NCBI RefSeq assembly: GCF_025717065.2
Contig: NZ_JAOVZO020000003.1
Span: 930,001 to 994,000 of the forward strand
Reading direction: 5' to 3'
Length of the DNA: 64,000 bases
From: Tahibacter soli
Lineage (GTDB): Bacteria; Pseudomonadota; Gammaproteobacteria; Xanthomonadales; Rhodanobacteraceae
Below, one piece after another: positions 13,357 through 56,666 of the stretch. The notes under the pieces were generated by a model. It saw only the letters and a program-made list of their open reading frames with translations, was not told the origin of the DNA and searched no databases. A program made the position numbers and the translations under genes. Every line of letters begins with the position of its first letter. The stretch's first letter is position 1.

Positions 13357-15315
13357 ATGCGCAAGGCGATGAAGTGGGTATTCGTGCTCGCGGCGACGGC
13401 CGCTTCCGGAATGGCGCCGGCGAGCCAGCCGCTCGTGCCGCCAAACAATCCGGCGCAGTTCGGCACCTGGCTCGTCTGGGGCGGCGACATCGAAGTGCAG
13501 TTCAATCCCGACGCGCTGCAGGGGCTCGAGCTTGCGGTCGATCGCGTCGACGGCGCGAAGTCGCGCGTCGTGGGCAAGCCGGGCGTGCGCTACGAATCGA
13601 TGACGTTCCGCGCGCGCGACGACGCGACGCTCGAAGTGCGCCGCAACGGCAACAAGGTCCACGCGATCGGCGGCGGCGCGCTGCGCACCGACGCCGGCTT
13701 CGTACTGACGCACGGCGGCGAGCGCTACGACCTCGTCGGCTTCGGGGTGCGAGCCGCTGCGGGCACCTTGTTCGAATTGGAAATCGTGGACAAATCGGGC
13801 CTGGCGCTGTTCACCGCCGATCACGCGCACTACGGTTTCGTCGACGCCGCGCGCACGCGCTTCGGCATGCGCAACATGAACCTGCGCATCTCGGCGAACC
13901 TTGCGGCGAAACTCGGCAAGCCGGAACTCGCGGGCCGTCCGATCGGCGGCATGTCGCTGGTCGCGCAGGGCACCGAAGACTCGCCCGGGCCGCAGCCCGA
14001 GGGCGGCGTCTGCAACGCGCCGTTCCCGACCGCGGGCATGACGACCGACATCCAGACCGTCTTCCGGCTCGGCCCGCAGAACTGGACGGGTGCCGACGAC
14101 GGCGTCGACTTCAAGCGCTGCAAGCTGCCGAGCGGTTCGGCGTGCAGCGCCGGCAGCACGACCGGCAGCGTCGTGTTCGCGCCCGATTCGAGCCTCGTCA
14201 ACATCGGCGAGACCGCGGTCGCGTGGCACCAGATGTTCACCGGCAACTCGGCGCCGTACAACAACGACCAGCACCCGTTCCTGATCTGGAACCTGTACCG
14301 CATCGACGGTGACGGACGCCTGCGCCAGATCGGCGCGTCGGGCGTCAAGCACGCCTTCATCACGATCAACTTCGCGTGCGCCTGCGGCGAGGGCCACATC
14401 ATCTACCCGACCTGCGAAGACACCTACGCCTCGTACAACAACGATACGAGCGAAGTGCTCGGGCCGCGCCGCGAAATCGTGCCGGTCAGCGCCACGTGGG
14501 CACGCTGCGGCTCGATCTACGACGCCAACTGCGACGGCAATCGCGACAACGGCAACCCGAACGACCTTTACGCGCAGCGCATGACCGTGACCGAGAGCGA
14601 AATGCTCCCGCCGGTCTCCGACGGCGCAAAGTACTATTTTGAATACTGGTACATCGTGCGCGACGATCAGAACATCTACAACACGATGGGCTACCGGCAG
14701 ATCGCGCCCACGAAGAACGGCGCGAACTGGTCGGCCAATCTCGTCAACAACGTCGCGCCGAACTACGATTTCTACCAGGGTCCGGTGATCAACTACTGGG
14801 TCGATCCGGCCGCGCCCGGCGCGAACGCCGCGAACGAGGAACTGGTCACCCCGCTCGGCCGCGCGCGCGTCGCGGTGCGCGCGACCGACCTCGGCGGCGG
14901 GCAGTGGCGCTATCGCTATGCCGTGATGAATTTCGAGTATGCGCACGTCGACATCGACCCGGCGCATCCGAACGAGCCGAATCTCAAAGTGGCCGCGACC
15001 GTCGGGTTCGACCGGTTCGCGGTGCCGCTCTCGGTCGCCGCGACCGACGTGCGGTTCTTCGACGCCGACGGCAACGCGGCGAACGACTGGACCGCGTCGA
15101 CGACCGGCGGGCAGATCGTGTGGACCGCGCCGGCCGGGACGAGCCTCGGATGGGGAACGCTCGCGCAGTTCGAGTTCACGACGACCGTCGCGCCGGCGGC
15201 GTCGACCGTCACGCTGCGCGGCGCCGCGACACCGACCAAGACGGCGATCGATTACAGCCGCACCTTGCTCGGCCCGACGGCGTCGGACGTTATCTTTGCG
15301 GACGACTTCGAGTAA
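13357..15315 (+). CDS. Secreted protein of the same family, member 2, with C-terminal IFADDFE tail
   Basis: 652 residues from ATG 13357 (AGGGGAC ribosome site; the upstream in-frame GTG/ATG region is not conserved). Signal peptide MRKAMKWVFVLAATAAS...APAS. Family blocks are clear: WLVWGGDIEVQFN at the mature N-terminus, AWHQMF, YNNDQHPFLIWNLYR, SGVKHAF, CACGEGH...C-x-DTY, LGPRREIVP, RCGSIYDANCDG, YWYIVRDDQNIYNT, GGGQWRYRYAVMN. Ends exactly in DVIFADDFE, a tail shared with four other secreted proteins in this window. Function unknown; the even number of conserved Cys and Asp-rich loops suggest a disulfide-bonded, Ca2+-binding envelope or extracellular protein. Confidence 0.88.
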   Translation: MRKAMKWVFVLAATAASGMAPASQPLVPPNNPAQFGTWLVWGGDIEVQFNPDALQGLELAVDRVDGAKSRVVGKPGVRYESMTFRARDDATLEVRRNGNKVHAIGGGALRTDAGFVLTHGGERYDLVGFGVRAAAGTLFELEIVDKSGLALFTADHAHYGFVDAARTRFGMRNMNLRISANLAAKLGKPELAGRPIGGMSLVAQGTEDSPGPQPEGGVCNAPFPTAGMTTDIQTVFRLGPQNWTGADDGVDFKRCKLPSGSACSAGSTTGSVVFAPDSSLVNIGETAVAWHQMFTGNSAPYNNDQHPFLIWNLYRIDGDGRLRQIGASGVKHAFITINFACACGEGHIIYPTCEDTYASYNNDTSEVLGPRREIVPVSATWARCGSIYDANCDGNRDNGNPNDLYAQRMTVTESEMLPPVSDGAKYYFEYWYIVRDDQNIYNTMGYRQIAPTKNGANWSANLVNNVAPNYDFYQGPVINYWVDPAAPGANAANEELVTPLGRARVAVRATDLGGGQWRYRYAVMNFEYAHVDIDPAHPNEPNLKVAATVGFDRFAVPLSVAATDVRFFDADGNAANDWTASTTGGQIVWTAPAGTSLGWGTLAQFEFTTTVAPAASTVTLRGAATPTKTAIDYSRTLLGPTASDVIFADDFE

Positions 15316-15379
15316 GGTTGCGTACTTCGAAGAATGTTTCGCGGCGCGATCGATGGCGCGCGCCGCCGGCATCACGGAT

Positions 15380-15407
15380 CGAGGAACGGGCGGAAGCCCG
15401 TTCCTCG
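15380..15407. terminator. Perfect 12-bp hairpin with GGAA loop after member 2
   Basis: Stem 15380-15391 / 15396-15407 with a GNRA-type GGAA loop, 65 bp after the member-2 stop and before the cytochrome gene. No T-run follows, so termination is only partial if it occurs; an RNA-stabilising role is equally possible. Confidence 0.45.
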
Positions 15408-15508
15408 ACGTAGACAAGGGGCGGCGGCTGCGAAGGGATGCTCGCGGGGAGCGAGCGGTGCGCAGCCGGAGTTGGCATGCCAGGGAGCGGCCTGATCCGG
15501 GATTCGAC

Positions 15509-17392
15509 GTGGTTCGTGCAGCACGTTTCATCGTTCTCTGTTGGCTGGTTTCCAGCTTCTTCGTCGCGACGCCGGCGCGTGCCGACCTGCCCGTCTGGGC
15601 CGCGGTCGCCGGCACGCTCGACGTCACGCCGCACGGTACGCAGCCGGGCCTCGCGCACGATCTGATCGGCGCGCAGAACTGCGGCTTCTGCCACCGCGGC
15701 GCCGACCCGGGCGACGAAAACATCATGCCGGCGAACACCTGGCGCGGCTCGATGATGGCCAACGCGACGCGCGATCCGGTGTTCTGGGCCGCGCTCGACG
15801 TCGCCAACAACGACGGCGCGTCGATCGGCGTGCCGAACATCGGCGACTACTGCCTGCGCTGCCATACGCCGAAAGGCTGGTACGGCCAGCGCGTCAAACC
15901 GGGCGGCAGCAATACGCTCAACGGCGCGAACGGCTGCCTGCTGCAGGGCGACTACGACGACGACGACACCGGCACGAACGACTACGGCGGCGAAAGCTGC
16001 CACTTCTGCCACCGCCTGATGAACCAGGGGCCGCAAGGCCAGCCGGCGTATCTGGAAAATGCCAACGCATGGCTCGACGACGGCGACTGCAACGGCGCCG
16101 GCGGACCGTGCCGGCGCGGTCCGTACACGTACGAGGACGGCAGCGGGCCGCCGCACGAATGGGCGTATTCGCAGTACCACGAATCCAGCGAAATCTGCGG
16201 CCTTTGCCACAATGTAACGACGCCCGACACGAGCGAGGGACCGCTGCGCACGCTGCGCGACGCGGCCGGCGTCGATACCGGCGTGCCGTTTCCGATCGAG
16301 CGCACCTTCAGCGAATGGAAGATGAGCGACTTCGGCGACCGCGACCGCATCTTCCGGAACGGTTTCGGCACGCGTCTTGAGCCCTCTTCGCAGATCGCCA
16401 GTGCGCAGGAATGCCAGCACTGCCACATGCCCAACAGCGACGACCCGGCCGCGCGCGCATGCGTGTTCGACGAGCCGGGCGCGCGCACCGGCAACCTCGC
16501 GACGCATCAGTTCGCGGGCGGCAACGCCTGGGTGCCGAACATCCTGAAGGGCCAGTACGGCCAGCAGCTCGAACGCGAATTCGAGTTCAACCAGACGATC
16601 GCCTGGGCGCGCGCCATGCTCGCGGCGAGCGCCGAAGTGCAGGCGACGCGCACCTCGTACGTCGCGCCGACGCCGACGGTCGCGGGCAGCCTCGGCCTTG
16701 CCGTCAAGGTCATCAACCTGTCGGGCCACAAGCTGCCGACCGGCTACGGCGAGGGCCGGCGGATGTGGCTCAACGTCAAGGTAACGGGCGGCAACGGCGC
16801 GACCGTGTTCGAAAGCGGCGCCTACAACCCGACCACGGCGGTGCTGACGGCCGATCCGCAGGCCAAGGTCTACGAGATCCTTCAGGGCATCTGGGACGCC
16901 GGCACGTCGACCTGCAAACACACCGACGCGGGCGGCGCCGAGCAGTTCCATTTCGTGCTGAACAACTGCGTCGCGAAAGACAACCGCATTCCGCCGCTCG
17001 GCTTCACCGGCGGCACCAACCTCGAAGTGAAACCGGTCGGCTACACGTATCCGACGGTCCCCGGCTCGACGCGTCTCGTCAACTACGACACGACGAACTA
17101 CACGGCGACGCTCCCGGCCGGCGCGCAGCCGCCGTTCACGGTCATCGCGACGCTGCACTACCAGACCGCGAGCCGCGAATACATCGAGTTCCTGCGCGAC
17201 GAAGCCCTCGACCACGGCTTCCCCGGCGAGAACGCGATGTGCAGTACGGCGCCTTATACACGCACGCCGTTCACGGTCGGGCCGCAGGCGAAGACGCGCG
17301 GGCAGTATCTGTACGACCTGTGGAACGACCCGGCCTACGGCAAGTCGCCTCCCGAAGTGATCGACAATGCGTCAATCATTGTGACGAACTGA
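15509..17392 (+). CDS. Exported multiheme (pentaheme) c-type cytochrome
   Basis: 627 residues from the GTG at 15509, which directly precedes a signal peptide (RFIVLCWLVSSFFVATPARA). The frame is open further upstream, but that part reads through a hairpin. Five C-x-x-C-H haem-attachment motifs are visible: CGFCH, CLRCH, CHFCH, CGLCH and CQHCH, all in the first half; the second half (from about residue 370) is haem-free and beta-rich. It would be a periplasmic or outer-surface electron carrier. It stands among three paralogous secreted proteins in the same orientation, so a functional link is possible but unproven. A weak ribosome site makes the start uncertain; ATG 15353 is an alternative but would bury the signal peptide. 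Confidence 0.85.
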   Translation: MVRAARFIVLCWLVSSFFVATPARADLPVWAAVAGTLDVTPHGTQPGLAHDLIGAQNCGFCHRGADPGDENIMPANTWRGSMMANATRDPVFWAALDVANNDGASIGVPNIGDYCLRCHTPKGWYGQRVKPGGSNTLNGANGCLLQGDYDDDDTGTNDYGGESCHFCHRLMNQGPQGQPAYLENANAWLDDGDCNGAGGPCRRGPYTYEDGSGPPHEWAYSQYHESSEICGLCHNVTTPDTSEGPLRTLRDAAGVDTGVPFPIERTFSEWKMSDFGDRDRIFRNGFGTRLEPSSQIASAQECQHCHMPNSDDPAARACVFDEPGARTGNLATHQFAGGNAWVPNILKGQYGQQLEREFEFNQTIAWARAMLAASAEVQATRTSYVAPTPTVAGSLGLAVKVINLSGHKLPTGYGEGRRMWLNVKVTGGNGATVFESGAYNPTTAVLTADPQAKVYEILQGIWDAGTSTCKHTDAGGAEQFHFVLNNCVAKDNRIPPLGFTGGTNLEVKPVGYTYPTVPGSTRLVNYDTTNYTATLPAGAQPPFTVIATLHYQTASREYIEFLRDEALDHGFPGENAMCSTAPYTRTPFTVGPQAKTRGQYLYDLWNDPAYGKSPPEVIDNASIIVTN

Positions 17393-17402
17393 TTTGTCCA
17401 TG

Positions 17403-17431
17403 AAGGACAGCGCCATACTGGCGTTGTCCTT
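17403..17431 (+). terminator. Probable terminator after the multiheme cytochrome
   Basis: A 12-bp stem (17403-17414 / 17420-17431, one G-T pair) with a 5-nt loop, 11 bp after the stop, followed by a modestly T-rich stretch (gttgctttg). Confidence 0.65.
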
Positions 17432-17521
17432 GTTGCTTTGCACAACGATACGGCTTAGTTTGGTGATAGGCTTAATCGTTATATCGCAAAGCCGTAGTCC
17501 ACTGCAGCGCCGGGGGTGTTT
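17432..17521 (+). promoter_or_regulatory. Upstream region of member 3
   Basis: About 90 bp, AT-rich compared with its surroundings (cttagtttggtgataggcttaatcgttatatcg in parts), between a terminator and the next start. A sigma-70 promoter is likely here, but no well-spaced -35/-10 pair can be fixed by eye. A GGGGG stretch serves as ribosome site. Confidence 0.35.
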
Positions 17522-19597
17522 ATGTCAGGGGTGTCTTTGCGCGGTGTACTTTTCGCCGCGTTGTTAACTTTTCCAACTGTAGGCATTTATGCGCAGTCGG
17601 AGTCGGGCGAAACGCCTGCGACCGCGCAGGTCTGGACCGCCTGGGGAGGCGATCTCGGCTTCATCTGGAACGAAGATCTTCTGGCCGATCTCGGCGCGCG
17701 TCTCGACGGCGCCGACGGTACGAGCCCACAGGACGCGCGAGGTTTCATCCCCGTATCGCTGCGTGAAACGGGCGGTCTCACGTTCGCCGTCACGAGTACG
17801 AACTTCGATCACTTCACCGGCGGCAGCCTCGGTCTGCGCGGCGGCTTCAGGCTGCGCGTGCCCGACGGCGAACTCTCGCTCGTCGATGCGAGCCTGCGCC
17901 CGCGCGCCGGCGATCCGCAGACGCTCGATCTCGTCTCCGCCGACGGCAAGACGTGGTTCTATCTCGACAAGCTGATGTATTCGATCGGCCAGAAGGGCCG
18001 GGTGCTCGACGTGCAGACGATGGATCTGCGCATCCATCCGGCGCTCGCGGAACGGCTCGGCAAGCCGCAGGTGGCGAACTGGGCGATCGCGCAGCTGCGC
18101 ATGACGCTCGACGTGCTCGCGCGCAACGGCGAATACATCGAGATCGTCGAAGGCGGCCCGGTCTGGCCGAACACGGAAGTGCCCGGCGTGCCCGGCGCGT
18201 TCTACCAGGGCGACGTCTTCATGACGAACTTCAACGCCCAGTACTCGCGCTGCACGAACAACCTCTCGTGTACGAGCGGCTGCGCGTGCGACGGCCCCGG
18301 CGGCGCGACGAACGGTTTCGCCGTGTTCACGCCGTCGTCGACGCTGCGCAACAACGTCAACAACGGGACGGCGACGGCGACCGTGGCGGGCGATCCGCTC
18401 GGCACCAGCACCGCTTTGTATACCGCCGATATCGCGTGGTACCGCAAGTTCACCGGCTCGTTCCCGCCGTACGACAACGACCAGCATCCGAACCTGATCT
18501 GGAACCTGTACCGCATCGACGGCAACGGCCGCATCGAACAGATCGGCCGCTCGGGCGTCAAGCACGCGTTCGTCACGACGAACGGCGGCTGCTCGTCGGG
18601 CCCGGGCAGCGGCGGTTCCACCGGCACGATTCTCGGCCGCTCGTGTTCCGACACGTACGGCACGAGCAACAACGACAGCAATCCCGATCTCGGTCCGCGC
18701 AGCGAAATCGTGCCGAACGGCGATCTGTGGGGGCGCTGCGGTTCGATCTTCGATACGAACTGCGACCGCACCGCCGAGGCCAGCAACGGCAACACGAACT
18801 ACAGCCAGCGCATGATCGTGCGCGAGTCGCAGCTCGAAGCGACCACGCCGGCCAGCACGTATCTGTTCGAGTCGTGGTACATCGTGCGCGACGACATCAA
18901 CGTCTACAACACGATGGCGACGCGGCCGGTGTCGTTCAGCTACGCGGGCGGCGGCCCGTGGGTCATCACCAACAGCAATCCGTATCTGCTCGGCCCCGCG
19001 ATCGACCGCTGGGTCAGCCCGACGTCGTCGAACCCGAACCAGAAAAACGTCGAGATCGCGAACGAGGAAGGCCACACGAAGGTCGCGGTCAAGGCGACCG
19101 ACCTTGGCGACGGCACGTGGCGCTACGATTATGTCGTGATGAACGTCGACTTCGCGCGCGCGTTCACGCAGGGCACGAACAAGTACGGCGACGACGCCGA
19201 CCCGGCGCAGCGCTTCCGTGTAGTCCACAACTTCGGCTTCGACCGCTTCAGCGTTCCGGTGCCGACCGACGCCGCGCCGACCGCGATCGAGTTCAACGAC
19301 GGCGATCTCGACACGGCGAACAACTGGACCGGCGCGGTCGCCGACGGCGTGCTGACGTGGACGGCCCCGGCGAATCCGTCGCCGCCGGCCAACGTGCCGG
19401 CCGTGCTGAACGCGCTGAACTGGGGCACGATGTTCCGCTTCTCGTTCGTGTCGACGCGTCCGCCGGTCGCGGCCGATATCGCGCTGCACGTCGCACAGGC
19501 GGGCAAGCCGGAATCGTATTCGGCGACGATCGTCGGACCGCAGGTGCAGCCGGACGGCATCTTCGAGGACGACTTCGAAGTGCCCGCGGGCAACTAA
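17522..19597 (+). CDS. Secreted protein of the same family, member 3, with C-terminal IFEDDFE tail
   Basis: 691 residues from ATG 17522 (a GTG two codons upstream is possible). Signal peptide about residues 1-24 ending in IYAQ. It has the family blocks AWGGDLGFIWN, AWYRKF, YDNDQHPNLIWNLYR, SGVKHAF, C-SDTY, LGPRSEIVP, RCGSIFDTNCDR, SWYIVRDDINVYNT and WRYDYVVMN. The N-terminal third is most divergent. It ends DGIFEDDFEVPAGN, so the shared tail sits five residues before the end. It is separately transcribed from the cytochrome gene by a terminator and convergent with the acylase gene. Confidence 0.88.
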   Translation: MSGVSLRGVLFAALLTFPTVGIYAQSESGETPATAQVWTAWGGDLGFIWNEDLLADLGARLDGADGTSPQDARGFIPVSLRETGGLTFAVTSTNFDHFTGGSLGLRGGFRLRVPDGELSLVDASLRPRAGDPQTLDLVSADGKTWFYLDKLMYSIGQKGRVLDVQTMDLRIHPALAERLGKPQVANWAIAQLRMTLDVLARNGEYIEIVEGGPVWPNTEVPGVPGAFYQGDVFMTNFNAQYSRCTNNLSCTSGCACDGPGGATNGFAVFTPSSTLRNNVNNGTATATVAGDPLGTSTALYTADIAWYRKFTGSFPPYDNDQHPNLIWNLYRIDGNGRIEQIGRSGVKHAFVTTNGGCSSGPGSGGSTGTILGRSCSDTYGTSNNDSNPDLGPRSEIVPNGDLWGRCGSIFDTNCDRTAEASNGNTNYSQRMIVRESQLEATTPASTYLFESWYIVRDDINVYNTMATRPVSFSYAGGGPWVITNSNPYLLGPAIDRWVSPTSSNPNQKNVEIANEEGHTKVAVKATDLGDGTWRYDYVVMNVDFARAFTQGTNKYGDDADPAQRFRVVHNFGFDRFSVPVPTDAAPTAIEFNDGDLDTANNWTGAVADGVLTWTAPANPSPPANVPAVLNALNWGTMFRFSFVSTRPPVAADIALHVAQAGKPESYSATIVGPQVQPDGIFEDDFEVPAGN

Positions 19598-28601: not shown

Positions 28602-31478
28602 TTACGGCTGCTCGAAGCCGTTCCTGAAGATCAGGTCGGTGTTGGTGTAGCTGCCGGTGATCGCCTGGTTCGTCAGCGGCGAATACGCGAGCACGATCGC
28701 CAGATACGTGCCGGGCTGCGGCGCCGCGATAGTGCACGTTTCGTTCGCCGTCGCGCCGGCCGATTCGCAGACGATGTCTTCGCCGAGCTTCACCGTGAGA
28801 TCGGCGTCCTCGTTGGCGGGGCCGGTCGTTACGAACGACAGGTTCGTCGCGCCCGGCGGCACGACGAGGGTGTAGCGCAACTCGTCGTTCTGCGCGGCGC
28901 TCTGGCCCGACACGGTCACGCCGTTGGTCAGCGGCACCGGCGGCGCGCGCAGGCGCGCGACGCGCGAGTAGCTCGCGCCGGTGCCGTCGTCGTCGGTGAC
29001 CGTCAGGCGCACCGTGTAACTGCCGTAGGCCGCGTAGGTATGCGACGCGCTCGCCGTGGTCGCGGCCGGACTGCCGTCGCCGAAGTCCCAGCTGTACGAC
29101 GCGACCGTGCCGTCGAAGTCGAGCGACGTGCTCGCAACGTCGATGTCGCGATCGTCGATCGCGAGATCGAAATCCGGCGTCGGCGGCGCGTTCGTCGCGC
29201 TCGCGCCGAGCACGATGCGCCACGCGCCGCGGCTGTACGAGCCGGCGGTCAGCACGTGCGGATCGTCGTCTATTTCCAGGTCGACCACGACGAGGCCGAG
29301 CGGCATGCCGGCCGAATACGCCGTGAAGTTGTCGCCGCCGTCGACGCTTTCGTACACGCCGACGTCGGTCGCGACGAACAGCCGGTTCGTGTTCGCCGGG
29401 TCGATGACGACGCTGTTCGCCGGCACGTTCGGCAGGCCGGCGCCGACCGCCGCCCACGTCGTACCGCCGGTCGTCGAGCGATACAGCCGCGACGCGCCGA
29501 AGCCCGCACGCGTGACGAACACGCGCTGCGCGTTGGTCGGATCCATCGCGATGTCGGAGACGCGACCGCCGGGATAGTCGCCGGTGACGTTCGCGAACAC
29601 CGGCGTCGGCGCGTTGGCGTCGGCGCTCGACCAGATGCGTCCGCCGGCCGTGCCGACGTAGGTCGGCATCATGACGCCGATCAGCTGCGGCGTGATCACG
29701 CTTGCCGCGCCGCCCAGGTTCGGCGACAGCGCGGTCCACGCGTTGCCGTCGGTCGTCGTGCGATACAGGATGTTCGACGCCGTGAACAGGCGATTGCCGG
29801 CCACGGCGAGCGGCGTGACCCACGGAAAGCTGGCGCTCGCGGTCAGGCCGGTGGTCGGCATGCGTTCGAAACTGTCGAGGCTGCCGTCCTGTTCGGAGCG
29901 GACGATATAAGGCAGGTTGCTGCTCGGATAGCTCGTCTGGAACACGCGCGACGGCAGCGTCGGGTCGACCGCGTTCATGAAGCCGTCGCCGCTCGCGAAC
30001 GTGAGATTCCACTGCAGGCTGGTGCGGCGCGACGACGAGCCGTTGTCCTGCGCGCCGCCGAACACGATGTTGACGTCGGCGGGATGCACCGCGATGTCGT
30101 AGAACTGCGTGATGTTGAGATTGGCGTTCATGTTGACGTACGACACGCCGCCGTCGTCGGTACGCCAGAGGCCGCCGTCGGTGCCGACCCAGAAGCGGTT
30201 CGGGTTCGTCGCCGAGTAGCGCACGACGTGCGTGTCCTGATGGACTTTCTGCGACTTGCCCCAAGTGCTCGTCATTGGCGTGAGCGTCGCGCCGGCGTCG
30301 GTCGCGCGGTGATGGCGGATCGTGCCGACGAGCACCGTCGACGGATCCGTCGGATGCACCGCGAGCGTCAGGTTGTACGAGCACTGGCCTTCGCACGCCG
30401 CCGCGTTTTTCTGCGTCCAGCTCGTACCGCCGTTCACGGTCTGGTGCAGGCGCGACACGTTGGTGTTCGAACCGGTCAGCGCATACAGCGTGTTCGGGTC
30501 GCTCGGAGACAGCGCGAGGCGCAGGCGGCTGCCCGAGGCGTTGAGGCCGGTGCTGACGCTCGTCCACGTCGCGCCGCCGTCGGTCGACTTCGATACGCCC
30601 GAGCCGATGAGTCCCGCGTAGACCGTGTTCGTGCCGGGCACGAACAGGATGTCTTCGACGTTCGTGCTGAGCACGCGCGTCCAAGTCAGGCCGCGGTCGG
30701 TCGAGCGGAACACGCCGGCGCCCGACAGCGTGCCGGTCGCGCCGCAGGTGCCCGCGCCGCCGGCGAGAATCACGTTGCTGTCGGTCGGCTGCACGGCCAC
30801 CGCGTTGACGATCGACAACGGCATTGCCGTCGCGCCCGCGCCGTTGCGCGCGTTCCATGTCGCGCCGGCGTCTTCGGACAGAAACACGCCGAGCCCGAAA
30901 TACTCGGCGCAGCCGCCGGCGTTCTTGTCGCCGGTACCGACCCACACCGCGTTCGCGTCGTTCGGATCGAGCGTCACCGCGCCGATCGGCAGTGTGCCGA
31001 CGTTGTCGAAGACCGGCGTCCAGCTCGCGCCCGCGTCGGTCGTCTTCCACACGCCGCCCGCGGCCGCGCCGACGTAGACGGTGTCCTCGTTGCCGGGTAC
31101 CGGTGCGATGGCGTTGAGGCGGCCGGATACTTTTCCCATCGTCCACGAATTCATCGTCATCGACGACGGGCCGACCGGCTGCCACACCTCGCCCGCGCGC
31201 GCGAGCTGCGGGTCCTTGGCCCGGCGCTCAGCCTTGAGCGATTCGGCGGCCTGCGCGCGCAGGCGTGCCGCGTCCGGCACCGTGCGCAGCGCGTGCGTCT
31301 GTTCGAACCACAACTGGCGCTGCTCGATCTGCCAGCTTTCCTCGCGGCCTTCGCCTTCGCCCTCGTCTTTCGCTTCGAGGTGATCGGCTTCTTCGTGCCA
31401 CGCCGGCGCCGGAGCGGCCGGCAACAACACCATCGCCAGCGCGCCGAACGCGCGCCAACCGCAAATTTGAATCGACAT
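28602..31478 (-). CDS. Large secreted BNR-repeat beta-propeller protein with PKD and pre-peptidase-like domains and IFRNGFE tail
   Basis: 958 residues with a GGGAGG ribosome site. The signal peptide ends near PAPAW; an acidic stretch (EAKDEGEGEGREE) follows. From about residue 100 to 700 it has repeated Asp-box/BNR units of the S-x-D-x-G-x-x-W type (WKTTDAGASWTPV, FRSTDRGLTWTRV, SKSTDGGATWTSV), as in sialidase-like and VPS10-like propellers. A PKD domain follows (WDFGDGSPA...HTYAAYGSYTVRLTVTD), then a pre-peptidase-like beta-sandwich. No sialidase active-site set (Arg triad) could be recognised, so enzymatic activity is not claimed. The last residues DLIFRNGFEQP carry the shared tail. Confidence 0.9.
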   Translation of the reverse strand: MSIQICGWRAFGALAMVLLPAAPAPAWHEEADHLEAKDEGEGEGREESWQIEQRQLWFEQTHALRTVPDAARLRAQAAESLKAERRAKDPQLARAGEVWQPVGPSSMTMNSWTMGKVSGRLNAIAPVPGNEDTVYVGAAAGGVWKTTDAGASWTPVFDNVGTLPIGAVTLDPNDANAVWVGTGDKNAGGCAEYFGLGVFLSEDAGATWNARNGAGATAMPLSIVNAVAVQPTDSNVILAGGAGTCGATGTLSGAGVFRSTDRGLTWTRVLSTNVEDILFVPGTNTVYAGLIGSGVSKSTDGGATWTSVSTGLNASGSRLRLALSPSDPNTLYALTGSNTNVSRLHQTVNGGTSWTQKNAAACEGQCSYNLTLAVHPTDPSTVLVGTIRHHRATDAGATLTPMTSTWGKSQKVHQDTHVVRYSATNPNRFWVGTDGGLWRTDDGGVSYVNMNANLNITQFYDIAVHPADVNIVFGGAQDNGSSSRRTSLQWNLTFASGDGFMNAVDPTLPSRVFQTSYPSSNLPYIVRSEQDGSLDSFERMPTTGLTASASFPWVTPLAVAGNRLFTASNILYRTTTDGNAWTALSPNLGGAASVITPQLIGVMMPTYVGTAGGRIWSSADANAPTPVFANVTGDYPGGRVSDIAMDPTNAQRVFVTRAGFGASRLYRSTTGGTTWAAVGAGLPNVPANSVVIDPANTNRLFVATDVGVYESVDGGDNFTAYSAGMPLGLVVVDLEIDDDPHVLTAGSYSRGAWRIVLGASATNAPPTPDFDLAIDDRDIDVASTSLDFDGTVASYSWDFGDGSPAATTASASHTYAAYGSYTVRLTVTDDDGTGASYSRVARLRAPPVPLTNGVTVSGQSAAQNDELRYTLVVPPGATNLSFVTTGPANEDADLTVKLGEDIVCESAGATANETCTIAAPQPGTYLAIVLAYSPLTNQAITGSYTNTDLIFRNGFEQP

Positions 31479-32272: not shown

Positions 32273-32273
32273 G

Positions 32274-41832: not shown

Positions 41833-42999
41833 ATGAAAGCGATTTACCGCGGCGCGATGCTCGCGCCGATCCTGAGCCTTGCCTCTTTCGCGGCGTGTGC
41901 CGCCGACGTCGTCAGCCTGGTCGAACTGCCCGCGCCCGACTTCGCCGGCACGGCCGGCGTGTCGAACATCGCCGCCGACGGCACCGTGGTCGGCACCGGC
42001 TGGCCCGACGGCGTGGTCGTGCGCTGGAAGCCGGGGCAGGCGGCCGAGAACCTCGGCGGCGACACGTTCACGCTCGAAAACATCATGCCGCTGATTTCGG
42101 CCGACGGTTCGACGATCGTCGCCGGTTCGTACTTCTCGCCGGCCGACCCGAACGATCCCGACGCGCTGCCGGTCAGCCAGCCCGGCATCTGGCGCGGCGG
42201 CACGACGTGGGAGGCGATCGGCGGTACCGTGCTCGAGCAGGCGACGCCGTTCGCGATCTCGGACAACGGGCAGTTTCTCGGCGGCAGCGGCGTGACGACC
42301 GCCAATCCGCCGCCGGGCACCAAGGTCTACAGCCAGGCGTGGACATGGTCGGCCGCGGGCGGCCAGCACGTGCTCGGCGCCGTGGCGGGCTACAGCGGCA
42401 CGCACGCGTGGGCGATTTCCGACGACGGCCGCCTCGCGGCCGGCTACGGCGACAACGTGCCGGACGACTTCACGCGCCGCGGCGTGCTGTGGGACGACGG
42501 TGTACCGGTCGTGCTGACCGACGGCGAAGGCCGCCCGGTCGGGCAGGCGATCTCGTGCAACAGCGACTGCTCGATCGTCGTCGGCGCCGGCTTCACGGCC
42601 GAGGGCGGTTCGAACCAGGCGTGGCGCTGGACCGCGAAAACCGGCGTGCAGTACCTCGGCGAAGTGCCGGGCGCGCCCGAAGGCGTCACGTACTACGCGT
42701 TCGACACCACCGAGGACGGTTCGAAGATCGTCGGTTCGTATCCGGTGTTCGATCCGGCGCAGGGCCCGATGAACCACGGTTTCGTCTGGACCGCCGACGG
42801 CGGCATGGTCGATCTCGTCGCGTATCTCGCCGAGCACGGCATCGACTACGGCGCGAATTTCAACGAACTCGTGATCGCGGCGATGACGCGCGACGGCCGG
42901 CGCCTGCTGATCAACGGCGGCGACGAGAACTACCAGCGGCAGCGCGCGATCGTGCGGATCGATCCGGATGCGATTTTCGCGAACGGGTTCGAGCAGTGA
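41833..42999 (+). CDS. Secreted HAF-repeat-like protein with IFANGFE tail
   Basis: 388 residues. Signal peptide MKAIYRGAMLAPILSLASFAACA. The rest is repeated beta-strands of the type A-x-x-I-S-x-x-G-x-x-V-x-G (AISDNGQFLGGSG, AISDDGRLAAGYG, DTTEDGSKIVGSY) alternating with AWRWT/FVWT strands, as in extracellular HAF-repeat proteins. It ends DAIFANGFEQ, one of five tails of this type in the window. No catalytic residues can be proposed. It stands alone between the frameshifted regulator and a REP-like pair. Confidence 0.85.
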   Translation: MKAIYRGAMLAPILSLASFAACAADVVSLVELPAPDFAGTAGVSNIAADGTVVGTGWPDGVVVRWKPGQAAENLGGDTFTLENIMPLISADGSTIVAGSYFSPADPNDPDALPVSQPGIWRGGTTWEAIGGTVLEQATPFAISDNGQFLGGSGVTTANPPPGTKVYSQAWTWSAAGGQHVLGAVAGYSGTHAWAISDDGRLAAGYGDNVPDDFTRRGVLWDDGVPVVLTDGEGRPVGQAISCNSDCSIVVGAGFTAEGGSNQAWRWTAKTGVQYLGEVPGAPEGVTYYAFDTTEDGSKIVGSYPVFDPAQGPMNHGFVWTADGGMVDLVAYLAEHGIDYGANFNELVIAAMTRDGRRLLINGGDENYQRQRAIVRIDPDAIFANGFEQ

Positions 43000-50395: not shown

Positions 50396-50467
50396 TCGCT
50401 TGCATGGAAACCGGCTGCCGGCGAGGATCGCCGGCAGCCGTGCCGCCGCACAGGGAGTTCGCGTTCC

Positions 50468-51115
50468 ATGTCCGTAACCTTCATCATCATCGGCATCACA
50501 GTCGTCGTCTCGTTTCTCGCGTTCAACGACAGGCGACTGATGGACCGGCTCGTGCTGTGGCCGCCCGCCGTGCAGCGCGACGGCCAGTACTACCGTCTCC
50601 TGACGCACGGCTTCGTCCACGGTGACGGCATGCATCTTCTGTTCAACATGCTGACGCTGTATTTCTTCGGCCCGTCGATCGAGCGGCTGCTCGGTGCGAT
50701 GGCCGGGCCGTGGGCGTACCCGGCGTTTTACGTAGCGGCGATCATCGTGTCGATCCTGCCTTGGCAGCACGCGCACCGGAACCGCAGCGACGTCGCGTCG
50801 CTCGGCGCGTCGGGCGCGGTCTGCGCGGTGCTGTTCGCGTACATCCTGTTCGATCCGTGGGCCACGCTCCTGTTGTTCTTCGTGGTTCCGGCGCCGGCGA
50901 TCGTGCTGGCGATCGGCTACGTCGCGTACTCGATCTACATGGACCGCCGCACCGATCGCGGCACCGGCGCGAAGATCAATCACAATGCGCACCTGTGGGG
51001 CGCGGCGTTCGGCATCGCCTTCATGCTGGTCGTCGAGCCCAGCGTGCTCGGTCACTTCCTCGACCGCCTCGCGCACCCGCGCTTCAGCCCGATGGGCCAC
51101 TTCGGCGCCTTCTGA
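50468..51115 (+). CDS. Rhomboid-family intramembrane serine protease
   Basis: 215 residues, six hydrophobic helices. The catalytic Ser is in LGASGAVCAV (near residue 115) and the His in NAHLWGAAFG (near 176). The loop/helix HGFVHGDGMHLLFNM with conserved Asn is in place. It cleaves within or near membrane helices; no substrate can be named. The start ATG 50468 has GGGAG upstream. Confidence 0.93.
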   Translation: MSVTFIIIGITVVVSFLAFNDRRLMDRLVLWPPAVQRDGQYYRLLTHGFVHGDGMHLLFNMLTLYFFGPSIERLLGAMAGPWAYPAFYVAAIIVSILPWQHAHRNRSDVASLGASGAVCAVLFAYILFDPWATLLLFFVVPAPAIVLAIGYVAYSIYMDRRTDRGTGAKINHNAHLWGAAFGIAFMLVVEPSVLGHFLDRLAHPRFSPMGHFGAF

Positions 51116-51198
51116 CGATCTTCGAACACCGGGTTTGACCGGACACCCCGCAGCGCCGACACTGCGCGCGGGGGTACGTCCGCGACGGAGGGTGGACA

Positions 51199-51708
51199 AT
51201 GGGGATCTGGGATCGACTGACGGCGTTGTTCGCGCCGAAACCGAAATTCAACGACCGCCGCGACAAGCCGCGGCTCAACGCACGGGAAGGTACGCGCGTA
51301 CTGATCGTCGACGACTCGGCCACGATCGTCGCGCTGCTGCGAAAGCTCTTGCAGCAGAACGGCTACAGCACGCTCGAGGCGCACGACGCCGAACAGGGCC
51401 TCGTGATCGCCACCGACGAGCAGCCCGATCTGATCTTTCTCGACATCGTGCTGCCGGGCATGAACGGCTTCGCGGCGCTGCGCCAGCTGCGGCGCGATCC
51501 GCGCACGAAGGGCATTCCGGTGATCATGATCAGCGGCAACGAGCAGGCGACCGAGCAGTTCTACGCCCAGCGCATCGGCGCCGACGATTTCATGAAAAAG
51601 CCCTTTTCGCGGGCCGAAGTGTTCATGCGCATCGAACGCCTGCTCAACGCCGAGAAAGTGCCGCACCGCGTGTCGCAGGGCACGCCGCCGCCGCGCCGCG
51701 ACGTGTGA
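51199..51708 (+). CDS. Single-domain response regulator (CheY/PilH-like)
   Basis: 169 residues: a basic N-terminal extension of about 30 residues (MGIWDRLTALFAPKPKF), then a receiver domain with acidic pair IVDDS, phospho-acceptor Asp in IFLDIVLPG (about residue 80) and KKP near 133. No output domain. Such proteins often work in twitching or chemotaxis-like pathways, but no such genes are nearby. Confidence 0.9.
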   Translation: MGIWDRLTALFAPKPKFNDRRDKPRLNAREGTRVLIVDDSATIVALLRKLLQQNGYSTLEAHDAEQGLVIATDEQPDLIFLDIVLPGMNGFAALRQLRRDPRTKGIPVIMISGNEQATEQFYAQRIGADDFMKKPFSRAEVFMRIERLLNAEKVPHRVSQGTPPPRRDV

Positions 51709-51716
51709 GCGCCGCA

Positions 51717-51748
51717 ACGTAGCGGCCGCCTCGCGGCGGCCGCTACGT
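51717..51748. terminator. Bidirectional hairpin between convergent genes
   Basis: 13-bp perfect stem (51717-51729 / 51736-51748), loop CTCGCG, 9 bp after the response-regulator stop and 22 bp from the end of the M3 gene on the other strand. Confidence 0.7.
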
Positions 51749-51769
51749 GATGCGTGAAGCGAGACCGGC

Positions 51770-53950
51770 TTACTTCGCCGCCGGCGCCGTCGCGGTCAGG
51801 CCGCGGCGTTCCAGCAGCGGCTTGACGTCCGGATCGCGGCCGCGGAAGTCGCGGAACAGCTGCATCGCGTCGACGCTGCCGCCGCGCGAGAGCAGCGTGT
51901 CGCGGAAGTGATCGCCGTTCTTGCGCGTCAGGCCGCCGTTCTCCTTGAACCATTCCACGCTGTCGGCGTCGAGCACTTCCGACCAGATGTACGCGTAGTA
52001 GCCGGCCGAGTAGCCGCCGAGGATGTGCGAGAAGTACGTCGAGCGGTAGCGCGGCGGCACCGGAGCGTAGTCGACGCCGGCCTTCTTGAGTGCGTTCGCT
52101 TCGAACGCGAGCACGGTGTCGGCGGTCGGCGCCTGGTCTGCCTTGATCTGGTGGTACGCCTGGTCGAGCAGCGCGGCGCCGAGGTATTCGGTCGTCGCGA
52201 AGCCCTGGTTGAATTTCTGCGCAGAAAGAACCTTATCCACAAGTTCCTGCGGAATCGGTTCGCCGGTCTTGTAGTGCTTGGCGTAGTTCTTCATGATTTC
52301 CGGCCAGGTCATCCACATTTCGTTGACCTGCGACGGATATTCCACGAAGTCGCGCGGCACGCTCGTGCCGGAGAAGCGCGGGTACTTCACGTTCGAGAAC
52401 ATGCCGTGCAGCGCATGGCCGAATTCGTGGAACGCGGTGTTCGCCTCGTCGAACGTGAGCAGCGTCGGCTCGCCCTTCGGCGGCTTCGGAATGTTGAGGT
52501 GATTGGCGACGACCGGCGTCGTGCCGAACAGGCCGCTCTGCGAGACGTATTCGTTCATCCACGCGCCGCCGCGCTTGTTGTCGCGCGCGTACCAGTCGAC
52601 GATGAAGATCGCGAGCTGCTTGCCGTCCTTGTCGAACACGTCGAACGTGCGTACGTCCGGCTGGTAGACCGGCAGGTCCTTGCGTTCCTTGAACGAGATG
52701 CCGTACAGCTTGTTCGCGGCGTAGAACACGCCGTTGACGAGCACGTTGTCGAACTCGAAATACGGGCGCAGCTGCGATTCGTCGAAGTTGAACTTCTGCG
52801 TGCGCACCTTCTCGGCGTAGTACGACCAGTCCCACGCGGCGAGCTGGAAGCCGCCCTTTTCCTTGTCGATCAGCGCCTGCATGTCGGCGGCTTCTTTCTT
52901 CGCGTTCGCGACGGCGGCCGGCGCGAGTTGCGACAGACGGTCGTTGACGGCCTTGACCGTGTGCGCCGTTTCGTCTTCGAGCACGTACGTGGCGTGGTCC
53001 GGATAGCCCAGGAGCGCGGCGCGCTCGGCGCGGATCTTGGCGACCTTCGCGATGATCGCGCGGTTGTCGAATTCGCCGCCGTGGCTCGCGCGGCCGACCG
53101 AGGCCTTCTGCAGGCGTTCGCGCACGGCGCGGTTTTCGAGCTGCGCGAGCGCCGGCTGGCCGGACGTGTTCTGTAGCGTGATCACGTACTTGCCTTCGAG
53201 GCCGCGCTTCTTCGCCGCTTCCGCGGCCGTGGCGATCGCGCCGTCGGACAGGCCCTTCAGTTCTTCCTTCGTGTCGACGACGAGCGCCGACGCGTTGTTT
53301 TCCTTGAGCAGGTTCTGGCTGAAGCTCGTCTGCAGGCTGGCCAGTTCGGCGTTGAACGCCTTGAGCTTGGCCTTGTCGGCGTCGTTGAGCTTGGCGCCGG
53401 CGCGCACGAAATCGGTGTGGTAGCGCTCGACCAGGCGCTTGGATTCGGCGTCGAGCCCGAGCTGGTCGCGTTTTTGGAACAAGGCGTCGACGCGCGCGAA
53501 CAGCTTCGGATTGAGCGCGATCGCGTCCTGGTGCGCCGACAGCTTCGGCGCCATCTCGGCCTGGATCTTCTCCATCTCGTCGTTCGTGTTCGTGCCCGAC
53601 AGGTTGAAGAACACCGTGCTCACGCGCGTGAGCAGCTGGCCGGAACGCTCCAGCGCGACGAGCGTGTTGTCGAACGTCGCGGCGTCCTTGTTGTCGGCGA
53701 TCGCGTCGACTTCCTTGACCTGTTCGGCCATGCCGGCTTCGAACGCCGGGGCGTAGTCCGAATTCTTGATCTTGTCGAACGCCGGATACTGGAACGGCAG
53801 AGTGCTGGGCTTGGCGAACGGATTGTCGGCGGCCATCGGGGCGGTCTTGGCTGCGGCGGCGGCCTTGGGGGCCGCGGCCTTGTCGGCGGCGAAAAGGGGC
53901 GAGGCGGTCCCGAGGGCGAGCGCCAGGGCCAGGGCAAGACGGGTTTTCAC
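51770..53950 (-). CDS. M3-family zinc oligopeptidase (Dcp-like), exported
   Basis: 726 residues. Signal peptide (MKTRLALALALALGTASPLFAA) and an Ala/Lys-rich linker. The catalytic motif HEFGHALHGMFS lies at about residue 507, preceded by LLTFDEANTAF and followed by the FVEYPSQVNEMW block with the third-ligand Glu, as in peptidyl-dipeptidase Dcp. Its signal peptide puts it in the periplasm, like the M2 enzyme encoded 1.7 kb away. Confidence 0.94.
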   Translation of the reverse strand: MKTRLALALALALGTASPLFAADKAAAPKAAAAAKTAPMAADNPFAKPSTLPFQYPAFDKIKNSDYAPAFEAGMAEQVKEVDAIADNKDAATFDNTLVALERSGQLLTRVSTVFFNLSGTNTNDEMEKIQAEMAPKLSAHQDAIALNPKLFARVDALFQKRDQLGLDAESKRLVERYHTDFVRAGAKLNDADKAKLKAFNAELASLQTSFSQNLLKENNASALVVDTKEELKGLSDGAIATAAEAAKKRGLEGKYVITLQNTSGQPALAQLENRAVRERLQKASVGRASHGGEFDNRAIIAKVAKIRAERAALLGYPDHATYVLEDETAHTVKAVNDRLSQLAPAAVANAKKEAADMQALIDKEKGGFQLAAWDWSYYAEKVRTQKFNFDESQLRPYFEFDNVLVNGVFYAANKLYGISFKERKDLPVYQPDVRTFDVFDKDGKQLAIFIVDWYARDNKRGGAWMNEYVSQSGLFGTTPVVANHLNIPKPPKGEPTLLTFDEANTAFHEFGHALHGMFSNVKYPRFSGTSVPRDFVEYPSQVNEMWMTWPEIMKNYAKHYKTGEPIPQELVDKVLSAQKFNQGFATTEYLGAALLDQAYHQIKADQAPTADTVLAFEANALKKAGVDYAPVPPRYRSTYFSHILGGYSAGYYAYIWSEVLDADSVEWFKENGGLTRKNGDHFRDTLLSRGGSVDAMQLFRDFRGRDPDVKPLLERRGLTATAPAAK

Positions 53951-54149
53951 GAGATTCTCCCTAGTCGTATTGCAAAGCGGTGGGCGATCCTAAACGGGAA
54001 CCGACCCTCCCGCCCATGGCTAAAGTCCCATCCGTATGCCCGAAATGCGCGGTCCGGCTGCACGATCGGGCGCCCGTGTACCAGGATCGCCTCGTTCAGC
54101 CCGCTACAATCGGGTGATCGCCGGTGGGGCGGCTAACGGGGGAGTCAGG
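53951..54149. promoter_or_regulatory. Divergent promoter region of M3 peptidase and choice-of-anchor B genes
   Basis: 200 bp between two divergent starts. TACAAT at 54105-54110 is a good -10 for the plus-strand gene, though no -35 fits at 16-18 bp. A GGGGGAG ribosome site precedes ATG 54150. No gene is accepted here (see the rejected mini-ORF). Confidence 0.4.
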
Positions 54150-56666
54150 ATGCCTATCGTCCACGCGGGGCGCCTCTTGGCGCTCGGTCTCGTCGTATCG
54201 CTCGCCGCGCCGGCGGTGGCGCAGGAGGCCGGCGACGGCGGCCTGAGCCCGCTGATGCAGCGTTTTGCCGACGCGCGGCCGAAGCAGCCGCGCGCGCTGG
54301 CGCCGCGCCACGCGACGCCGTGCGTCAACGGCATGGCCGGCGAATATCCGTGCTCGAACATCGATCTGCTGGCTTTCGTGCCGGTGGCGGAGTTCGCCGC
54401 GAGCAGCACGAACAGCCTGTGGGGCTGGACCGACGCGCAGTCGGGCATCGAATACGCGCTGGTCGGCGCGAACAACGGCACGGCGTTCTACGACCTGTCG
54501 CAGCCGTCGCATCCGCGCTACCTCGGCAAGCTGCCGACGCATACCGGCAATTCGCTCTGGCGCGACGTGCGCGTGTACGACAACAAGGCCTACGTCGTCA
54601 GCGACAACAACGGTTCGCACGGCCTGCAGGTGTTCGACCTGACGCGCCTGCGCGGCGTGACCACGCCGCAGACCTTCACCGAAGACGCCCACCGCAACGA
54701 CTTCGGCCGCGGCCATACGATCGCGATCAACGAGGACACCGGCTACGCCTACGTCGCCGGCAGCAACACCTGCGCTGCGCCCACCGCGACGGGCGGCCTG
54801 CGCATGTACAAGCTCACGGGCGCGGGCGCGCCGTCGTTCGCCGGCTGCGTCACGACCGGCGGCTATACGCACGAGACGCAATGCTTCACGTATCACGGCC
54901 CCGACACCGCGCACGCCGGCAAGGAGGTGTGCCTCAACGCGAACGGTCCGACCGACCGTTTCGCGATCGTCGACGTGACGAACAAGTCGGCGCCGGTCAC
55001 GCTGTCGTCGACCGCCTACGCCGGCGCGGGCTATCCGCACCAGGCGTGGTTCACCGACGATTTCAAATACGCGCTGCTCAACGACGAACTCGACGAAACC
55101 TCGTTCGGCCACAACGCGCAGACGCTCGTGTTCGACGTGAGCGACCTCGACGCGCCGACGCTCGTCGGCCGCTTCGATCACGGCAAGCCGGTGATCGACC
55201 ACAATCTCTACGTGCACGGTCAATATGTGTACGAATCGAACTACGAATCAGGCCTGCGGATCCTGCGCCTGGGCAATCTCTCGCAGGCCGAGCTGACCGA
55301 AGTGGCGTACTTCGACGTCTATCCGCAGAGCGATCAGGCGGAGTTCAACGGCAACTGGAACAATTACCGTTTTCCCGGCAGCGGCAACGTCATCGCGACC
55401 GGCATCGACGAAGGCTTCTTCGTGCTCGAGCCGCGGCTGTGCACGCCGCCGGTCGCGCCCGCGGGCGTCACGGCGACCGCGAACGGCGACCAGCGCATCG
55501 ACCTCGCGTGGACCGGTTCGCCCGGCGCGCTGTGGCGCGTCGAACGCGCGCAGGGCGGTTGCGGCGGCACGTTCCGCACGCTGGCCGACTCGGTCGCCGC
55601 GACGTCGTATTCCGACACGAGCGCGTCGGGCAGCGTGACGTACGGCTATCGCGTGGTCGAACGCGACGCGAGCGGGCGCTGCGCGTCGGTCGCGTCGACG
55701 TGCGTCGAGGCGCAGACGACCGGCCAGTGCACCGCGCCGCCGGTGTTCGGCGGCCTCGCGCAGGCGACCACGCCGTTCACGAGCGCGTGCCGCATCGATC
55801 TTTCGTGGAACGACGCCGCGCCCGCGTGCGGCGGGCCGGCGACCTATGCGGTGCATCGTTCGTCGACACCGGGTTTCGCGCCGTCGGCGGCGAATCTCGT
55901 CGCGACCGGTTTCAACGACGCGGGCTATGCCGACAGCGCGGTGCCGAGCGGCCAGACGCAGTACTACGTCGTGCGCGCGATCGACGAGACGAACGACGCG
56001 CACGACGCGAACACGGTCGAGCTGTCGGCGAAGGCGCTCGGACCGAACGTCGACGGCGCGATGACGTCGGGTGCCGAGCCGGGCGATCCGCCGTTCGACA
56101 GTGCGACATCGTCGCTCGTCGGCAATGTCGAAACGCCGGCGGCCGTCCGGCATGCCGGCTGGCATACGTCGATGTCGCGCGTGCATGCCGGCGCGCAGAG
56201 CTTCTGGTCGACCTCGGCGAACAACCTGTGCGTGTCGCTCGTGACGCAGCCGATCGAACTGACGGCGGGGCAGAGTTCGGAGCTGTCGTTCTGGAGCGTG
56301 TGGGACATTCCGCCGGGCGCCGACGGTGGCGTGGTCGAAGCATCGACCGACAACGGCACGACGTGGACGCGGCTGACGCCGGTCGGCGGTTATCCGGGCA
56401 GCATCACGAGCGGCGGCGCGCTGTGCGGCATCGCGCAGGGGTCGGCCGCGTACGCGGGGCTCGGACAGTTTTCGTGGACGCAGCACCGCGTCGATCTGGC
56501 GGCTTATGCCGGGCAGACGGTGCAGTTGCGCTGGTTGTATCGGACGGATGCCGCTACCGCGGGGAACGGGTGGTACGTCGACGACGTTGCGGTGACGCAT
56601 GCGCAGGTGGCGGGGGCTTGTGCCAGTGGGGTGGATCTCATTTTTGAGGATGATTTCGATCTCTGA
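54150..56666 (+). CDS. Choice-of-anchor B / LVIVD-repeat protein with fibronectin-III-like domains and IFEDDFD tail
   Basis: 838 residues from ATG 54150; the open frame begins further upstream without signal. Signal peptide ending PAVAQ. About residues 60-430 match the choice-of-anchor B type of LVIVD propeller (LWGWTDAQSGIEYALVG, NNGTAFYDLSQPSHPRYLG, GYPHQAWFTDDFKYALLNDE, IDHNLYVHG). Two fibronectin-type beta domains and a jelly-roll-like C-terminal part (WSVWDIPPGADGGVVEAST) follow. Members of this class differ in how they are held at the surface; here the end is DLIFEDDFDL. Confidence 0.9.
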   Translation: MPIVHAGRLLALGLVVSLAAPAVAQEAGDGGLSPLMQRFADARPKQPRALAPRHATPCVNGMAGEYPCSNIDLLAFVPVAEFAASSTNSLWGWTDAQSGIEYALVGANNGTAFYDLSQPSHPRYLGKLPTHTGNSLWRDVRVYDNKAYVVSDNNGSHGLQVFDLTRLRGVTTPQTFTEDAHRNDFGRGHTIAINEDTGYAYVAGSNTCAAPTATGGLRMYKLTGAGAPSFAGCVTTGGYTHETQCFTYHGPDTAHAGKEVCLNANGPTDRFAIVDVTNKSAPVTLSSTAYAGAGYPHQAWFTDDFKYALLNDELDETSFGHNAQTLVFDVSDLDAPTLVGRFDHGKPVIDHNLYVHGQYVYESNYESGLRILRLGNLSQAELTEVAYFDVYPQSDQAEFNGNWNNYRFPGSGNVIATGIDEGFFVLEPRLCTPPVAPAGVTATANGDQRIDLAWTGSPGALWRVERAQGGCGGTFRTLADSVAATSYSDTSASGSVTYGYRVVERDASGRCASVASTCVEAQTTGQCTAPPVFGGLAQATTPFTSACRIDLSWNDAAPACGGPATYAVHRSSTPGFAPSAANLVATGFNDAGYADSAVPSGQTQYYVVRAIDETNDAHDANTVELSAKALGPNVDGAMTSGAEPGDPPFDSATSSLVGNVETPAAVRHAGWHTSMSRVHAGAQSFWSTSANNLCVSLVTQPIELTAGQSSELSFWSVWDIPPGADGGVVEASTDNGTTWTRLTPVGGYPGSITSGGALCGIAQGSAAYAGLGQFSWTQHRVDLAAYAGQTVQLRWLYRTDAATAGNGWYVDDVAVTHAQVAGACASGVDLIFEDDFDL

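Follow-up and report, generated by a model that had tools for sequence, protein, structure and literature searches.

Several described systems sort exported bacterial proteins by means of a tag. The GlyGly-CTERM/rhombosortase system of Vibrio and Shewanella places one tag on many unrelated exported proteins and has a link to type II secretion, and in the type IX secretion system (T9SS) a C-terminal domain (CTD) of about 80 residues, which has no membrane segment, directs already folded proteins from the periplasm to the outer membrane. The PEP-CTERM tag of the exosortase system has a sporadic distribution that lends itself to phylogenetic profiling (PMC1569441). Substrate recognition by the type II secretion system (T2SS) is called elusive in PMC7949064, where the prevailing view is that of structural determinants and where a nine-residue exposed loop of PelI (loop 3) is described as a T2SS signal contacting GspC and GspD; PMC12369372 states that VesB secretion requires the PDZ domain of EpsC. 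Here, a nine-residue acidic-aromatic motif, [DE]-x-I-F-x-[DN]-[GD]-F-[ED], is analyzed, which ends five exported proteins in a 64,000-nucleotide stretch (the window; contig C3, positions 930001-994000) of the 6.65 Mb genome of Tahibacter soli. Very probably, it is a real, order-specific targeting motif that acts at the protein level on exported proteins. No published description of it was found among the titles and abstract openings surveyed.

The genome was searched with the DNA pattern for I-F-x-[DN]-[DG]-F-[DE], with or without a stop directly after it, and the reversed pattern was used as the control. Fourteen exact motifs were found directly before a stop and 81 matches were obtained without the stop anchor, the control giving 0 in both searches. 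All of the matches were inspected (76 outside the window and 5 inside), and 69 of them lay at 0-13 residues from a stop (14 at 0, 19 at 1, and 15 at 2). The enrichment at C-termini was strong, and the chance-level outcome that the preliminary description had named as its refutation did not occur. As for the remaining 12 matches, two were antisense-like noise by eye (L066 and L083) and ten fell in secreted-type or RHS proteins, one of them directly behind a signal peptide (L073) and nine either in linkers or loops or at a distance of 36 residues from the C-terminus (L047, L058, L063, L069, L079, L084, L097, L101, and L119). Two of these proteins, L101 and L063, were of the RHS type by eye and carried the motif within the repeat region, possibly in an exposed loop.

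Furthermore, 23 motif places were located in 20 stretches from 12 genomes belonging to other families (f4, f6, f9, and f11), 18 of which lay 25 residues or less from a stop. In three stretches (L254, L257, and L259, the last with two copies) the motif directly followed the signal peptide and thus formed the mature N-terminus, and the fifth non-tail place (L245; L259 counts twice) was probable noise. The L254 protein resembled DUF1800 by eye. Tandem tails, about 10-12 residues apart, ended the proteins of L261, L262, L264, and L235. The motif is not strictly C-terminal: it occurs at either end, in linkers and doubled. Because of these N-terminal, linker and tandem copies, a docking peptide fits better than a cleavage site.

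The link to export was analyzed in the first 400 kb of another contig (C23:1-400000; 267 called genes; a region chosen after the hit list was known) and in the window, 314 genes in total, which were called with a home-made codon-score caller and assigned to signal-peptide or membrane classes by a simple home-made heuristic. In C23, strict tails were present in 6 of the 65 signal-peptide genes, in none of the 73 membrane-class genes and in none of the 129 others (6/65 versus 0/202; Fisher 1.7e-4), which shows an enrichment on signal-peptide proteins and agrees, within this sample and with this predictor, with the signal-peptide-dependent export of T2SS substrates. In the window, the figures were 4/12, 0/9, and 1/26, the lone "other" being the protein whose tail ends at 15312, with a plausible signal peptide missed by the heuristic. 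Taken together, and with the window being the discovery region, 10 of 77 signal-peptide genes and 1 of 237 others carried a tail (4e-6). Relaxed tails in C23 numbered 11/65, 2/73, and 2/129; three of the last four (the two membrane-class ones and one of the 129) looked by eye like exported proteins, and the fourth was a chance match. Shuffling the 60 C-terminal residues of each of these 314 genes gave a mean of 0.0 tails, compared with 11 observed. The variants in this sample (IFASGFE, IFANGFQ, LFGDGFE, and IFRDAFE among them) gave a broader consensus of about [DE]-x-[ILV]-[FL]-x-[DNS]-[GDNA]-F-[EDQ]. Since such variants exist, the strict pattern misses about half of the tags, and the genome may therefore, by extrapolation, hold roughly 150-230.

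Across bacteria, the motif was detected in 114 of the 200 genomes sampled from the order of the window, with counts from 0 to 89 (reversed control 0-2). The 317 genomes outside the order in a class sample of 321 had at most four motifs each, which is the chance level (controls up to 3), and the same held for the number of motifs in the 292 genomes outside the order in a phylum sample of 299, which shares some genomes with the class sample. Among the genomes sampled, the motif was above chance only in this order, and there patchily. A scan with one narrow exact variant retrieved 27 stretches from Marinicella (several, including M. marina and M. gelatinilytica), Rudaea, Pseudofulvimonas gallinarii DSM 21944 and metagenome-assembled genomes (MAGs) of Lysobacterales, as well as from MAGs labelled Alcanivoracaceae, Pseudomonadales, Proteobacteria, and Gammaproteobacteria. 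Judged by these names, the order would be Lysobacterales/Xanthomonadales. G064, counted as tail-negative, has the variant NDLIFAHGFE on an endonuclease I, so the strict count misses some carriers.

The 69 tails of the source genome were then compared with one another. Position -2, outside the search pattern, was D in 58 and E in 8 of them, position +2 was A in 35, and the codons varied synonymously at the degenerate positions of the motif. Since synonymous codons vary and D or E occupies position -2 in 66 of the 69, selection acts on the peptide; a mobile DNA repeat was rejected on account of the same codon variation. The 30 residues before the motif had a mean identity of 7.5%, and only 7 of the 2346 pairs exceeded 40%. 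With preceding residues and protein bodies unrelated, the last strand of one shared homologous domain, the other refutation foreseen in the preliminary description, was also rejected.

The proteins that carry the tails were diverse. When the 69 were scanned in full length (long ones trimmed to the last 1000 residues), their matches fell in 62 families of NCBIfam (E<=0.01) and 80 of Pfam (E<=0.001). Among the 25 commonest families of each database were subtilases, reprolysin-like proteases, endonuclease I, the ExeM/NucH nuclease, DUF4394, LTD, fn3, propellers, choice-of-anchor J and Q, and partial matches to M36 models. The latter were to models named for rhombosortase, myxosortase, and T9SS, and were far below the cut-off in the one protein whose scores were examined. 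The choice-of-anchor groups, as their name implies, have relatives elsewhere that bear various surface-sorting tails. The last 40 residues of each protein were also scanned (E<=10) against Pfam and NCBIfam (release 20), and no model of the tail was found in either. The most frequent model reached 2 of the 69 C-termini in NCBIfam and 3 in Pfam, the recurring ones being body domains (choice-of-anchor Q and Endonuclease_1). The absence of any named family and of a transmembrane or basic segment (none by eye in the 69 tails), both noted in the preliminary description, was thereby upheld.

How the tag relates to the systems named above was examined in these tails and in a panel of 36 genomes, of which 16 were tail-positive and 20 tail-negative. 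It resembles GlyGly-CTERM in marking many unrelated proteins, in the link to type II secretion, and in an overlapping cargo (ExeM; partial M36 matches), but no Gly-Gly, transmembrane helix or basic end was seen in it, and it may be N-terminal, internal or doubled. No GlyGly-CTERM tail model was matched by the 69 C-termini at E<=10, one member matching rhombotarget A at E 0.12. Rhombosortase was over the cut-off in only 2 of the 36 panel genomes, both tail-negative, with the tail-positive G150 just below it (80.1 of 84 bits). PEP-CTERM is likewise a C-terminal tag of sporadic distribution, but the membrane segment is lacking here (the PEP motif, membrane helix, and basic end were absent from the 69 C-termini, by eye and by scan) and exosortase, present in 10 of the 16 tail-positive and 5 of the 20 tail-negative genomes, does not track the tag. 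Both enzymes were rejected because of these distributions. The T9SS CTD is also a sorting signal without a membrane segment; nevertheless, the motif has about nine residues, occurs in another phylum and is not confined to the C-terminus, and no NCBIfam model of a T9SS CTD matched the 69 C-termini. The analogy with T9SS or sortase-like C-terminal processing in the preliminary description is poor, in view of the copies after signal peptides, in linkers, and in tandem. Its broader proposal, a sorting or secretion signal, agrees with a motif shared by exported proteins of many families, but not as a purely C-terminal one.

Because the cargo resembles T2SS substrates, type II secretion was chosen as the first family to be tested. 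Two full copies of GspD were found in all 16 tail-positive genomes of the panel; the 20 tail-negative ones had one in 14 cases, two in G044, G058, and G064, three in G074, and none in G001 and G019. In the 18 loci with an extra GspD that were examined (those of the 16 positives plus G044 and G064), this gene sits in a gspC-D-E-F operon, and many of the operons adjoin helicase, trxA, rho, ftsE, and ftsX genes (neighbours assigned by eye, FtsX by Pfam). The genes gspG-N lie elsewhere, beside cysQ-, nudE-, and mazG-like genes, with GspN confirmed, and both kinds of locus were recovered in several of the tail-positive genomes. On the strength of this operon and the separate gspG-N loci, the extra system is, by gene content, a standard T2SS, named here T2SS-A (gspCDEF + gspGHIJKLMN). 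The other system, T2SS-B, is Xps-like (L142 and L148). All four of the GspC-A proteins scanned had the T2SSC domain and three had a PDZ domain over the cut-off, that of L157 remaining below it (20.5 of 27 bits). In the XpsN of the source genome, the T2SSC match was sub-threshold and no PDZ match was found, which agrees with the description of Xanthomonas XpsC in PMC11981180, where a single helix is predicted for the second periplasmic domain. In G057, tail genes stand at both ends of a 20 kb T2SS-A stretch.

GspK was rejected as a marker of the system, since its 63-position domain model (PF03934) matched all 36 panel genomes, often in long frames unlike GspK, and was of use only for locating some of the second T2SS-A loci. 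Among the 12 stretches taken from its matches, L206 and L213 had no such locus, and L214 and L216 looked partial.

The distribution of T2SS-A in the 200 genomes of the order was determined with a GspC-A profile built from 14 of the 18 loci (four were omitted, the gene start being unclear or not called). At E<1e-30, GspC-A was present in 101 genomes, with a gap to the next matches at 1e-23; all 200 genomes match the profile somewhere, mostly through PDZ domains alone below the threshold. Among the genomes with at least 10 motifs, 54 had GspC-A and 3 did not, compared with 47 and 96 among those with fewer than 10 (Fisher 6e-17, a figure that is not a probability, since the genomes are related). 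With a limit of at least four motifs, the corresponding numbers were 73 and 8 versus 28 and 91. The same association was seen within families, GspC-A being present in 5 of 5 tail-rich genomes and 0 of 29 others in f1, and in 1 of 1 and 0 of 34 in f2.

Endonuclease I, with 25 matches in the panel, allowed tailed and tail-less relatives to be compared. Neither of the two copies from tail-negative genomes (G101 and G067) has a tail, their ends lying 18 and 11 residues past the conserved NRNPFxDHPEW. Among the 23 copies from T2SS-A genomes, 17 had a tail or a variant by eye, 5 had none (L186, L196, L197, L198, and L204) and 1 was cut off (L199). Tail-less paralogues stood beside tailed ones in G000, G066, and G091, as would be expected if the tag chooses between two routes. 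The tail-less paralogues of L204, L197, and L186 are candidates for an Xps-type route.

These observations suggest a mechanism in which the tagged protein would cross the inner membrane by means of its signal peptide and fold in the periplasm, where the exposed peptide, mostly C-terminal but in some proteins within a linker or at the start of the mature chain, would be bound by a periplasmic receptor that hands the folded protein to an outer-membrane machine. The most likely receptor would be T2SS-A, with the PDZ of GspC, the domains of GspD that lie in the periplasm, or both as the contact. As the GspC-like XpsN/XpsC of the Xps-type T2SS-B in the source genome has no detectable PDZ, the tag would direct cargo to one or the other of two machines that coexist. 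We give an even chance to T2SS-A being the reader. Only tentatively, and at somewhat less than even, do we propose from these sequences that a position-independent, nine-residue linear motif may route dozens of folded proteins to one of two T2SSs and be read by a PDZ-bearing GspC, with or without its classical pocket. Contact through the classical peptide pocket of the PDZ is doubtful, since PDZ domains usually bind a free C-terminus and the motif can lie elsewhere. If such routing by the motif is true, type II secretion would have, to our knowledge, its first linear signal that can be transplanted. Like the known T2SS signals (PelI loop 3; the Ig-fold of VesB with the EpsC PDZ), the tag is a short, exposed and flexible element with acidic residues (in PelI, an acidic residue is reported as important) and would be recognized by GspC and GspD (PMC7949064, PMC12369372). 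Those signals, however, are loops or domains of single proteins, whereas in the present case dozens of unrelated proteins per genome have a single linear motif in common.

Several observations weigh against T2SS-A as the reader. Fewer than four motifs were counted in 28 of the 101 GspC-A genomes, and 19 of these 28 belong to family f10, genus g24. In 400 kb sampled from one genome of this genus (G058), none of the 59 signal-peptide proteins had a tail, strict or relaxed, so hidden tails were rejected for the genus within that sample. T2SS-A is thus not sufficient for tails. Conversely, three draft genomes with at least 10 motifs (G048, G118, and G182; 90, 94, and 81% complete) had no GspC-A match, and the GspC-A match contained an in-frame stop in G091, the sole f2 positive, and in G113. 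GspN was kept in all 10 tail-negative f1 genomes of the panel, where GspC-A was not found; therefore, T2SS-A was not lost whole there, GspN does not discriminate as a marker of the system, and it may have another role in these genomes. Additionally, the co-distribution, taken across 200 related genomes with no tree, may go back to only a few independent events of loss or gain (f1, f2, f8, and G019 by our estimate), and other genes may share it. A PDZ carboxylate pocket would not explain N-terminal and internal copies or up to 13 trailing residues. Of the machine with the same species distribution that had been anticipated, a second T2SS with much the same spread was found, but it does not suffice for the tails.

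The tailless T2SS-A of genus g24 leaves room for a second factor, as would be needed if the tag were a retention signal by which the protein, whatever its route of export, is then bound to a receptor at the cell surface (an outer-membrane protein, a polysaccharide or the S-layer) whose gene co-varies with T2SS-A. Choice-of-anchor B, J, and Q proteins in the cargo are in agreement with this, as is the presence of the motif at either terminus and in linkers, where a docking peptide could lie. Nevertheless, extracellular nucleases and proteases need no retention, simple clustering of open reading frames revealed no additional gene specific to the tag at the T2SS-A loci, a genome-wide receptor search not having been made, and we consider retention rather unlikely. 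It is improbable that the tag serves in folding, stability or quality control, for instance as a chaperone-bound or protease-shielding C-terminus: a short terminal peptide and a cargo rich in beta structure would suit such an element, but the tag is patchy within families, the same enzyme lacks it in other genomes, as do paralogues within one genome, and the motif also lies directly behind signal peptides.

A processing signal removed from the C-terminus by a sortase-, exosortase- or rhombosortase-like enzyme would account for the mostly C-terminal position and for the partial matches to families named for such systems; the lack, by eye, of a hydrophobic-plus-basic segment in the 69 tails, the N-terminal and internal copies and the enzyme distributions given above make it very improbable. 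It is extremely improbable that the tag has no function of its own and is either a mobile DNA repeat or part of a common beta-sandwich domain, as its first strand or a relic of it. In L259 the motif does run into a GDTSAW stretch that by eye begins a sandwich domain, but the low identity of the preceding residues, the varying codons and the absence of any model on more than 3 of the 69 C-termini speak against it. Returning to T2SS-A, a short motif on dozens of proteins per genome would offer a testable signal for the open question of T2SS recognition. With the motif, likely exported proteins can be listed across an entire order, and it might serve as a tag by which chosen proteins are exported; should T2SS-A prove not to read it, it still marks an undescribed sorting system and names its cargo.

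In the window itself, all five tails are in frame at the checked positions and as close to the stop as first described, and no further tails were found with a relaxed expression in all six frames (Table 1).

Table 1. Positions in the window of the five tails and of the proteins that carry them.
Feature	Position	Strand	Remarks
Tail DVIFADDFE	15286..15312	+	0 residues before stop
Tail DGIFEDDFE	19553..19579	+	5 residues before stop
Tail DLIFRNGFE	28611..28637	-	2 residues before stop
Tail DAIFANGFE	42967..42993	+	1 residue before stop
Tail DLIFEDDFD	56634..56660	+	1 residue before stop
Exported protein of unknown family, 652 aa, with tail	13357..15315	+	Open frame; N-terminus MRKAMKWVFVLAATAASGMAPASQ
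Exported protein of unknown family, with tail	17516..19597	+	Signal-peptide class; exact start uncertain
Exported BNR/sortilin-type propeller with PKD, 958 aa	28602..31478	-	Pfam matches; signal peptide by heuristic
Exported HAF-like protein, 388 aa	41833..42999	+	HAF repeat TIGR02913, E 0.0018, below cut-off; signal peptide
Exported choice-of-anchor B protein with InhA-like MAM domain, 838 aa	54150..56666	+	Signal peptide

The bodies of the five proteins are unrelated to one another, as had been described from their different folds. The first two had no Pfam or NCBIfam match at E 0.01. The propeller protein matched Sortilin-Vps10 (8.5e-21) and PKD_4 (9.1e-18), with a sub-threshold PPC match (24.3 bits; cut-off 25.9), the match of the HAF-like protein was weak, and the last protein matched TIGR04312 with 446.3 bits (cut-off 100) and PF20773 at 9.6e-17. 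The signal peptides attributed to all five were recognized by the heuristic in four; the N-terminus of the first protein reads as a plausible signal peptide by eye and was classed as "cyt" by the heuristic.

Two minor observations were also made. A 1686-residue frame of G152 (L158:14900-19960, minus strand) ends in a hydrophobic segment followed by basic residues, an end resembling tails of the IPTL or GlyGly type, which would be another kind of tag in the order. In the window, a rhomboid-like match was located at 50552-51025 (plus strand), with 45.3 bits to rhombosortase TIGR03902 (cut-off 84 bits); weak matches to this model were present in all 36 panel genomes and in all 14 controls.
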